In this document: in pieces, positions 19,550-23,813 of the stretch
How positions within the stretch are numbered: the stretch's first letter is position 1
Layout of the letters: each line of letters begins with the position of its first letter
DNA from: Thermoplasmatota archaeon
GTDB taxonomy: Archaea; Thermoplasmatota; Thermoplasmata; Thermoplasmatales; Thermoplasmataceae
Assembly: GCA_023489435.1 (NCBI GenBank)
Contig: JAMDCA010000044.1
Span: 1-51,598 of the forward strand
Direction of reading: 5' to 3'
DNA: 51,598 bases
Notes under the pieces: generated by a model
Told to the model about the DNA's origin: nothing
The model's input: the letters and a program-made list of their open reading frames with translations, nothing else
Database searches by the model: none
Translations under genes and position numbers: made by a program

Positions 19550-20119
19550 ATGGCAGATAGAGGTTCCGCACCTACCAAAAAACAGATGGATTTCATCGAA
19601 AAGCTCAGGAACGCTTCCACAGAAAGGGAAGAGGCTGTCCTTAAATTTCTTAAATCTAAGGATAAGGGTAACATTGGTGAACTCACAGTTCCTGAGACTT
19701 CTGAGTTAATAGACAAACTTAAGGCTATCAAGGTGGAGGGAGAGAACCTCTCTGCCGGATTTGCAACGGGTAAGCAGATAGGTTTCCTGACCAACCTCCA
19801 GGATACGGAGGAAAGAAGGTCGAAGGCCAGAGATTTTCTTAAGGAGCATCGCAAGACTTCGGTAAACGAGCTTTCAATTAACGAAGCTTCTGAACTCATA
19901 GATAATCTGATGACGATGCCCAAAGGTGATAGGCTGGATGCTTCGGAACTTGCTCCGACAACGAAGCAGCTCAAGTTCATACAGAACCTCCAGAAAACTC
20001 CCAATGGTTCAGGAATTTCAAGTTCCTACCTCAAGAAATTGAGGAAGGCTCAACTGGAGGAACTGACCAGAAAGGAAGCTAGCGAGTTGATTGAGTTGCT
20101 GAAAACTTCACCACAATAA
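19550..20119 (+). CDS. Small protein made of three copies of a KQ-x2-F...EASELI module
   Basis: 189 residues, cytosolic, highly charged. It is three tandem repeats of about 55-60 residues. Each opens with A-x-x-KQ-x-x-FI/L-x-x-L (PTKKQMDFIEKL at 8; ATGKQIGFLTNL at about 70; PTTKQLKFIQNL at about 136) and closes with EL-x3-E-x-SELI-x-x-L (ELTVPETSELIDKL, ELSINEASELIDNL, ELTRKEASELIELL). The module resembles the short DUF3072-like helical motif also seen at the ends of phage recombination and replication proteins, where it is thought to aid nucleic-acid or protein contacts; that link is from memory of the pattern. No other domain is present. Next to it are an amidohydrolase and a fasciclin gene, neither informative. 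Confidence 0.8.
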   Translation: MADRGSAPTKKQMDFIEKLRNASTEREEAVLKFLKSKDKGNIGELTVPETSELIDKLKAIKVEGENLSAGFATGKQIGFLTNLQDTEERRSKARDFLKEHRKTSVNELSINEASELIDNLMTMPKGDRLDASELAPTTKQLKFIQNLQKTPNGSGISSSYLKKLRKAQLEELTRKEASELIELLKTSPQ

Positions 20120-21996: not shown

Positions 21997-22425
21997 TTAG
22001 TCACTGTTTTTAGCATTTTCGAGTTCGGCCCATTTCTTTTCCAGCGATGCTTTGAGGTTGGTGGTCTTTACGCTTTTATCCTCCTTCTTGCGGAGCTCTT
22101 CGGGAGACCTTAGGCCGTTGCCCACGTCATATCTGAAGTTAATTATGGAGGATTTTGTTGTTTTATACCTATTGGACAATTCAGCGATTCTAGAATCCAC
22201 TGAACTTAGAACATGTTTCATGACTCCATATTCAAGAGAATCCTGCAGGGCCCTTCTTATGACATCCATGGCAGATTCATCTTCCTGCCTAAGAAGGTTG
22301 ATGGCGGAAAGTTCCTCTAGACCTAGGGTTATGGTGACCTCTCCCAGGTTCTCAAAATTCTCGAGGTCTTCCGGCTCTTCCGGTCCCGATTCAGTTTTTT
22401 TCCCTTTATCTGCAACCATGAACAT
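21997..22425 (-). CDS. Ribbon-helix-helix-like small protein downstream of the actin gene
   Basis: 142 residues, no database-style name recognised. Residues about 28-70 fit a MetJ/Arc/CopG ribbon-helix-helix: a short strand GEVTITLGLEELSAINLL, a turn, then MDVIRRALQDSLEYG as the second helix. Before it is an acidic leader (PEEPEDLENFENL); after it is a charged, mostly helical tail ending in KKWAELENAK that could contact a partner. It follows the ParM/Ta0583-like actin gene on the same strand with an 84-nt gap that contains two inverted repeats, one covering its ribosome-binding region. This is the layout of a ParR-type adaptor/repressor, but the function is inferred. M3 (22419) is an alternative start. 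Confidence 0.6.
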   Translation of the reverse strand: MFMVADKGKKTESGPEEPEDLENFENLGEVTITLGLEELSAINLLRQEDESAMDVIRRALQDSLEYGVMKHVLSSVDSRIAELSNRYKTTKSSIINFRYDVGNGLRSPEELRKKEDKSVKTTNLKASLEKKWAELENAKNSD

Positions 22426-22450
22426 TCATCCTTACTTCATCAAAGGATGA
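22426..22450 (-). promoter_or_regulatory. Inverted repeat covering the start of the RHH-like gene
   Basis: TCATCCTT (22426-22433) and AAGGATGA (22443-22450) form perfect 8-nt arms around a 9-nt spacer. On the minus-strand mRNA the downstream arm contains AAGG and abuts the ATG at 22425. It could act as an operator for the RHH-like protein or as a hairpin that hides the ribosome-binding site. Confidence 0.5.
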
Positions 22451-22497
22451 TTTCGATCAATATTGAATATAAATAGTTTCAGGCTAAATAAAAGTGA

Positions 22498-22526
22498 CAA
22501 GTAGATCATTTACTTAGATCTACTTG
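22498..22526. promoter_or_regulatory. 10-bp inverted repeat over the end of the actin gene
   Basis: CAAGTAGATC (22498-22507) and GATCTACTTG (22517-22526) form perfect 10-nt arms with a 9-nt spacer that includes the actin stop codon. On the minus strand it is followed by CACTTTTATTT. It may be a terminator/attenuator for the actin mRNA, or a binding site for the protein encoded next to it. Confidence 0.55.
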
Positions 22527-23490
22527 CTGCATCCCTATAGCCCAGAGCATTGGCGAACTGCACATCCTCGGACGGGATTTTTATCATTGCGCCGGGAGCC
22601 AGAGCTTCCAGTTTGTGCCCAATCAGGCTTGATCCTCCACCAACCGGAATCAGTGCAGTTATCCTGTCAAGTTCCTCTCTTAGGTTTTCCCTGAGTTTAT
22701 CAAGGACCCTTGACGCGAGATTGTTAAGTATAGGCTCTGAGACTTTTGGTCCACCCACCTCTCTCTGCTTGAAAACAACAGTTTGAGAGATTGCTTCCCT
22801 TGCAATATCTGTTGGCACTAAGAAACCGGTTTCTTTTGCAATTGCCTTGCCTATTCCTGATACGACATCCCCAACACCAGCCTGGATACTGAATGACATT
22901 CCGACCACAGGCTCCATGTTCTTGAGATTTACTGTAAGAACATCAGTCGTTCTTGAACCGATATCAATTACCACACCATATCCATACTGCGTCTTTATGA
23001 GACCCTGATCAAGAAGGAACAGCGCTGCTCCAACACCCTGTGGCCTCATGACAAGCTTTGATAATTTGAACTTTCTAACTTCGCCTGATGCGAGAGATTT
23101 CAGAGTGAGCTGTTTTCCCTCAAGGAATTCCTTCGCAGCTGCAAGTTCGTGCTCGAACGTTCCCAGAGGTGTTCCACTGCCTATTGTCAGTTCAGTTAAG
23201 TTTCCATCTGTGCCAGCGCCACTCATCCAGAGTGCACCAGCGAGCAATGGAAGTGAGTCAGGATCAGAAAGCCTTCCATCTCCCTGTGGTTCCCTTACGC
23301 TTGCTCCAGCAGCATCCTCTCCAAAGAAGAATGGTTCGCCATCATCTATTGTAAGTACTGTTGTAGTTCCACCAAATCCCCATGCCTTGGCTTCTGTTGA
23401 GGCCCATCTGGAGGGGAACTTCTCCCTTTTTCCATCAGCCCCGACGACTTTTGTATCTCCATATCCCAAGTCAATTCCAATTGTTATCAA
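22510..23490 (-). CDS. ParM-like archaeal actin (Ta0583 homologue)
   Basis: 326 residues, actin/HSP70 ATPase fold. It matches Thermoplasma acidophilum Ta0583, a filament-forming actin of ParM type, over its full length. The phosphate-1 loop is GIDLGYGDTKVVGADG (about 4-19), then FPSRWA, IGSGTPLGTFE, the phosphate-2 loop VVIDIGSRTTDVLT (about 173-186) and the adenosine loop IPVGGGSSLIG (about 278-288), ending FANALGYRDAA. The TTG start at 23490 aligns with the family N-terminus and is preceded by GGTGAGG, a good Shine-Dalgarno match. Expected to polymerise with ATP for segregation or cytoskeletal use. It is followed by an RHH-like gene in the manner of parM-parR. Complete. Confidence 0.92.
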   Translation of the reverse strand: MITIGIDLGYGDTKVVGADGKREKFPSRWASTEAKAWGFGGTTTVLTIDDGEPFFFGEDAAGASVREPQGDGRLSDPDSLPLLAGALWMSGAGTDGNLTELTIGSGTPLGTFEHELAAAKEFLEGKQLTLKSLASGEVRKFKLSKLVMRPQGVGAALFLLDQGLIKTQYGYGVVIDIGSRTTDVLTVNLKNMEPVVGMSFSIQAGVGDVVSGIGKAIAKETGFLVPTDIAREAISQTVVFKQREVGGPKVSEPILNNLASRVLDKLRENLREELDRITALIPVGGGSSLIGHKLEALAPGAMIKIPSEDVQFANALGYRDAASRSK

Positions 23491-23813
23491 ATATCCTCAC
23501 CTTTTCCTTAATCCCGGAACCATAACATGGCATGTCGCAAACAATGACAAACTCTGGCTATTCCTAAGGTAGCCATATTGTCAGATTTAGCTAATAGTGG
23601 TTCCATGCTACTCTGTTCCAGTTTACTTCAATTGTCAAATATGCATTTAAATTTTTCCATCGTCATCATGATAGTTCGTTTTTATGCATTCCGTGTTTTC
23701 TAAGTTCCATATAAAATATATACCTTAGGTACACATTTGACCTTTTTTTCTGATTTTGCTGCATCACAGGAACTTTTAGGAATTTAATATATATTTTTCT
23801 GGTATTACAAGGC
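23491..23813. other. 323-nt divergent promoter region between actin and prpD
   Basis: AT-rich, no ORF. It has an inverted repeat TGGCTA/TAGCCA with a 9-nt spacer (23555-23575), a nine-base element TACCTTAGG on the plus strand at 23721-23729 that recurs in reverse orientation at 23563-23571, and CAATTGT followed by CAAATAT at 23629-23642, which echoes the same two blocks with a 3-nt insertion across the actin start (23478-23494). No clear iteron array. The prpD TATA box is at its right end. Confidence 0.45.
23783..23794 (+). promoter_or_regulatory. TATA box of the prp operon
   Basis: TTTAATATATAT is centred 25 nt before ATG 23814. With no Shine-Dalgarno sequence before that ATG, a leaderless mRNA is likely. 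Confidence 0.55.

Follow-up and report, generated by a model that had tools for sequence, protein, structure and literature searches.

A Ta0583-type actin and a ParR-like neighbour form a chromosomal ParMR-like gene pair in the Thermoplasmatales

Does an archaeal actin of the Ta0583 type have a DNA-binding partner of its own, and does it move DNA rather than shape the cell? Ta0583 is known from its crystal structure and biochemistry, with roles in shape or cytoskeleton and in partition both suggested, and this T. acidophilum actin has featured in discussions as a model of the cytoskeleton of eukaryotes. The locus analyzed here lies on a 51,598-nucleotide contig from a member of the Thermoplasmataceae, a family of acidophilic archaea that lack a cell wall. 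This contig, referred to as the window, is chromosomal: it carries rpoB, rpoA1, and rpoA2 at 41–49 kb as well as two tRNA genes. The preliminary description singled out two consecutive genes as a candidate ParMR-type pair:

22510–23490, minus strand: Ta0583/ParM-family actin, 326 aa, TTG start (phmmer match to 2fsj, Pfam domains, start kept in relatives).
21997–22425, minus strand: ParR-like partner, ORF of 142 aa, with the likely true start at ATG 22419 (140 aa, 21997–22419; adjoins the actin in 29 genomes, dN/dS, near-invariant M3).

A phmmer search of the PDB aligned the actin with Ta0583 (2fsj) across residues 1–325 (E = 5e-131), in agreement with the end-to-end match originally claimed, and this full-length homology makes it a Ta0583-type actin. 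The Pfam domains ALP_N (1.8e-30) and MreB-like_C (4.6e-45), both over their cut-offs, and a match to the ParM of pCBH (E = 2.7e-13, phmmer against the PDB) identify a ParM-family actin with predicted ATPase activity. Such actins were 58–87% identical between genera in the alignment, the archaeal sequences formed one clade in the tree, and a dN/dS of about 0.01–0.05 in congeners revealed strong purifying selection. No relatives of the actin appeared among the viral contigs searched. The non-ATG start (TTG, 23488–23490) is conserved in the genus and its sister genus. Elsewhere in the window, positions 19550–20119 encode a 189-aa protein with about three repeats (TKKQ..FI..L....), for which only weak GemA/DUF3072-like matches were obtained.

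The partner ORF follows the actin after a gap of 84 nt. Its start is probably M3 (22419), because this column is near-invariant in alignment A2 and a Shine-Dalgarno-like AAGGATGA stands before it. By sequence criteria the ORF is a real gene under strong purifying selection, since it has 23 homologues and dN lies far below dS in congeners (NG86; dN 0.02–0.10 versus dS 0.8–2.6, dN/dS about 0.03–0.06). Sequence searches of PDB, Pfam, NCBIfam, and PHROGs disclosed no significant family for the protein, and Pfam, its RHH families included, gave nothing above threshold. Only E65, E129, and W132 are invariant in the 23-member alignment. Conservation is two-ended, residing in an N-terminal region and in a C-terminal L...LE..W helix, joined by a linker whose length differs by over 100 residues between members.

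To what extent the two genes travel together was evaluated in relatives. In a single-sequence search of 101 of them, 35 genomes proved to carry the actin and 16 the small protein. Reading the ORF directly 3' of every actin then recovered divergent homologues that this search had missed, ranging from 102 to 237 aa and alike in start pattern and end. A profile built from 23 members was searched in 77 family genomes and returned 30 strong copies in 29 of them; 29 copies sit directly downstream of an actin, the arrangement of an adaptor gene in ParMRC systems, and the thirtieth (G027) is cut by the contig end. Counted by genus, nine carry actin and partner, two the actin only, none the partner only, and eight neither (Fisher p = 7e-4, genera not being fully independent). 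The pair exists and is co-inherited, and its anticipated conservation across Thermoplasmatales extends to nine of the 11 actin-bearing genera of the family. One genome (G013) has two paralogous actins, each with its own partner. Locus neighbors are common to relatives, with MmgE/PrpD upstream and, in two genera, a peroxiredoxin downstream.

The family also includes Ta0583 itself. The actin of T. acidophilum (G042, locus L046) is a full-length match to the PDB Ta0583 sequence (2fsj; also 2fsk and 2fsn), of the same actin family as ours from end to end, and a 102-aa member of the partner family begins 8 nt after its stop codon; the actin of known crystal structure therefore also has a partner. 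The partner is missing from Ferroplasma and Acidiplasma, where the actin gene is often broken or lost. In these two genera the actin stands without a partner at L075, L074, L066, L070, L072, and L073. Among the Ferroplasma genomes, four have an intact partnerless actin, two a broken gene or a remnant, and in four no actin was detected; separately recorded were a frameshift in G054, a remnant in G043, and no actin in G264 and G454–G456. In Thermogymnomonas acidicola (L090:6001–6986) the actin is frameshifted in a draft assembly and the partner is intact, reflecting either an assembly error or a pseudogene.

The N-terminal end of the partner was described at the outset as a strand-helix-helix pattern resembling ribbon-helix-helix (RHH) proteins.

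22201–22350, minus strand: N-terminal RHH-like domain, residues 26–75 (strand about 30–35, helices 36–45 and 52–74; hhalign, AF2, Foldseek).

Profile comparison and predicted secondary structure both reproduced this pattern. The N-terminal 50 residues aligned by hhalign over 40 columns, with a probability of 83%, to an RHH set of 17 sequences made up of CopG, Arc, and 15 RHH_1 proteins from relatives. The score of 25.3 was above anything produced by 200 column shuffles (at most 19.1), and reversing the alignment gave 8.7. For residues from about 25 to 75, the AF2 model did not depart from an RHH fold: at a mean pLDDT of 89.8 it shows an extended segment, then a helix of 10 residues (H11–20 in fragment numbering), then a long second helix (H27–49). 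In the model, this succession of strand, 10-residue helix, short loop, and helix of 15 or more residues has the order and spacing of an RHH. Foldseek against the PDB gave eight matches for the fragment, all with E between 1 and 9 and none below 1, among them three ParD chains, one MazE, and one DNA-binding protein (1xrx); we take ParD and the matched MazE to be RHH antitoxins. These E-values are not significant alone; what counts as evidence is that RHH proteins are over-represented in such a short list of matches. As far as profile comparison and the monomer model reach, an RHH head like that of a ParMRC adaptor is well supported.

The charged helical tail noted in the preliminary description is also present, and its last part proved to be the most conserved piece of the protein.

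22021–22056, minus strand: C-terminal motif LKASLEKKWAEL, residues 124–135, candidate actin-binding helix (conservation, AF2 helix).

Within a helix modeled at residues 108–141, E129 and W132 are invariant and L124 and L128 near-invariant across the 23 members. The L...LE..W signature occurred in the gene just downstream of the actin at all nine partnered loci checked and near the end of none of 231 ORF fragments around six partnerless actins. On the actin side, 148 positions are conserved where the partner is present. Six of them differ in five or more of the six partnerless actins, and half of those six (D320, R324, and S325) fall in the last seven residues. In the actin fold, the C-terminal segment borders the barbed-end cleft. 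The change at the actin C-terminus in partnerless lineages points to a contact with the tail, as a suggestive sign only, given that one or two loss events underlie it. A C-terminal 17-residue peptide of ParR binds the barbed end of ParM (PMC9178275), and the partner motif is, by its anatomy, of the kind expected of a ParR tail that binds a filament end. Judged from these alignments, the tail likely binds the actin.

Among known systems, the plasmid ParMRC partition loci of pSK41 and R1 are close in layout: there too, the gene after the actin encodes a small protein that joins a DNA-binding RHH head to a conserved tail. The nearest structural relative of pSK41 ParM is Ta0583, and the first 52 residues of pSK41 ParR are enough for parC binding (PMC4911067). 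In contrast to those loci, the present pair is chromosomal and archaeal, has no parC repeats beside its genes, and encodes an adaptor with no detected sequence relation to theirs. Dh-cParM1 and Cb-cParM, from bacterial chromosomes, are also ParM-type actins with ParR-like neighbors, and they are kept within genera (PMC12270681). Dh-cParM1 differs in being bacterial and matches the window actin weakly (E = 0.0074, PDB search). In the open-access literature, to which the two original descriptions of Ta0583 do not belong, no paper naming a ParR-like partner of Ta0583-type actins was found.

As far as anatomy tells, the pair would work like ParMR. We consider it probable, with room for doubt, that the two genes are a chromosomal ParMR-like module of plasmid ancestry in which the small protein is an adaptor from DNA to filament and the actin moves or tethers DNA; DNA binding, actin binding, and DNA movement are what we infer for the pair. 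Two partner copies would pair through the N-terminal strand into an RHH that grips DNA, and the LxxxLExxW helix, carried by the variable linker, would bind the filament at its exposed end, close to the C-terminus of the actin. Growing filaments could then move or tether the adaptor-bound DNA. Autoregulation by the adaptor may come in addition. The DNA site might be a single palindrome, might lie elsewhere on the chromosome, or binding might be non-specific.

Three candidate cis elements lie in or around the genes:

22426–22450, minus strand: inverted repeat TCATCCTT-N9-AAGGATGA just before the partner gene, ribosome-binding-site hairpin or operator (conserved in the genus and sister genus).
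22498–22526, minus strand: 10-bp inverted repeat spanning the actin stop codon, a hairpin followed by a T-rich stretch, terminator or processing hairpin (from sequence).
23630–23660, minus strand: conserved TATA-like block AAATTTAAATGCATATTTGACAATTG upstream of the actin, candidate promoter or operator (inferred from an upstream alignment of two genera).

The right (3') arm of the first repeat, AAGGATGA, is likely the Shine-Dalgarno site. Among nine sequences, the changes in L061 and L062 keep G-U pairing in RNA and break the DNA symmetry; an RNA hairpin is therefore favored over a protein operator. A hairpin over the partner's likely ribosome-binding site is a candidate for translational control. 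Use of this palindrome as a dispersed parS-like site was rejected, there being essentially one per genome. At the archaeal loci tested, no parC-like repeat cluster rose above shuffled background in the 600 bp upstream, between the genes, or in the 500 bp downstream, with the exception of one two-copy 10-mer in L063. Because a repeat centromere was looked for and not found, the pair is not filed as ParMRC: it is a chromosomal ParMR-like pair.

The lack of centromere repeats near the pair is also what would be expected if the partner were a true RHH adaptor in a module that had ceased to segregate DNA, acting instead as an autoregulator and a regulator of actin assembly (nucleation, capping, or depolymerization), with the actin serving shape, division, or trafficking. 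Autoregulation or translational control would agree with the one palindrome that precedes the partner gene, and a bacterial chromosomal ParR acted as a depolymerization factor on mature filaments (PMC12270681). However, a pure autoregulator would need no C-terminal motif more conserved than its DNA-binding head, and a layout like that of ParR suggests that DNA is coupled to a filament. We hold this for a serious minority option, at perhaps one chance in four.

A second alternative denies DNA binding altogether: the small protein would be a helical coiled-coil protein that binds actin, its N-terminus merely resembling an RHH. Its weak HMM matches fall on coiled coils no less often than on RHH proteins, and some members have a strand of rather low polarity. 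The full-length AF2 model is confident in helices only and consists mostly of long helices; Foldseek with it returned no RHH fold and no useful match. Against this stand the RHH profile match, whose 40-column score none of the 200 shuffles equaled, strand and helix lengths in the AF2 fragment that are those of RHH, and the leading place of ParD and MazE antitoxins among the fold matches. These leave a coiled-coil protein unlikely.

The plasmid ancestry in the favored ParMR-like reading comes from the bacterial relatives. In 85,000 genomes, the only other close actins came from Bacillota MAGs from acid sites, 37–47% identical and several per MAG, and their ParB-like or coupling-protein-like neighbors (judged by eye) suggest plasmids or conjugative elements. 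The readable ones are followed by a protein of 85–125 aa that opens with a strand-helix-helix pattern and ends in an L..LE.RW/AF..DD-type tail. At one locus (L092:6961–7290), about 80-bp units with CTGGGCCA/TGGCCCAG palindromes form an iteron array between the actin and the small gene, likely parC by its sequence and the only array of direct-repeat centromere type found, the archaeal pairs having none. Similarly, the conjugative plasmid pY0017 of Sulfobacillus thermotolerans carries a ParM/StbA gene (25.9% identity) and then a 93-aa protein (WP_014107011.1) with a CopG-like start KKLTIRLSDDTL and an acidic tail; unlike our pair it is a true conjugative plasmid, and its adaptor is weakly similar to the archaeal partner. 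The Bacillota small proteins gave no significant match to the archaeal partner family or the RHH set. Direct homology between the archaeal and Bacillota small proteins is undemonstrated, layout and an LE..W-like tail being all they share. The distribution fits a plasmid partition module that entered the chromosome of an ancestor of the family and then descended vertically with losses. That the module is instead decaying, kept by chance or as an incompatibility or defense factor against related plasmids, agrees with its patchy distribution (11 of 19 genera), the broken or missing actins in Ferroplasma, and the plasmid-type relatives in Bacillota of the same kind of habitat, but is very improbable given strong purifying selection on both genes, a single archaeal actin clade, and the neighbors common to relatives (MmgE/PrpD, peroxiredoxin).

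Whether the ParMR-like pair would segregate DNA is a narrower claim. Each of the ten genomes checked encodes SMC. T. acidophilum (G042), G021, and the window genome (only 82% complete) gave no strong match to ParA (E below 1e-40); the actin pair is therefore the main partition-like module found in some genomes, not all. ParA genes (E about 1e-60) occurred within 2–3 kb of an extra Orc1/Cdc6 gene at G013:C1:395309–399325 and 609138–612975, G004:C11:107–3793, G016:C1:1080964–1084464, and G028:C1:1557773–1561615; such loci probably represent plasmids that have integrated or else a Thermoplasmatales ParA-Orc element. A link to the origin through closeness to orc1/cdc6 was dropped as inconsistent: the distance is 54 kb in G042 and 38 kb in G007, but over 700 kb separate the pair from the main orc1/cdc6 in G016 and G021. 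Counted against the ParMR-like module as a whole are the co-occurrence of SMC, ParA in some genomes, the inconsistent distance to orc1/cdc6, the persistence of the actin without partner in some Ferroplasma and Acidiplasma, the lack of parC-like repeats at archaeal pairs, sub-significant Foldseek and Pfam RHH results, and the missing sequence match between the Bacillota small proteins and either the archaeal family or the RHH set. The evidence suggests that the actin moves DNA rather than shaping cells, and we give a role in DNA segregation an even chance at best.

For the family, the conserved ParR-like neighbor provides a concrete candidate partner and mechanism, for Ta0583 as well. A bolder and tentative proposal, which we rate at around one in three, is that Thermoplasmatales segregate their chromosome with a domesticated plasmid-type actin and a dedicated RHH adaptor, through a centromere other than a local repeat array. 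If true, the movement of DNA by actin would reach to the chromosomes of archaea, and this would weaken the case for the Ta0583-type actin as evidence of an archaeal shape cytoskeleton.
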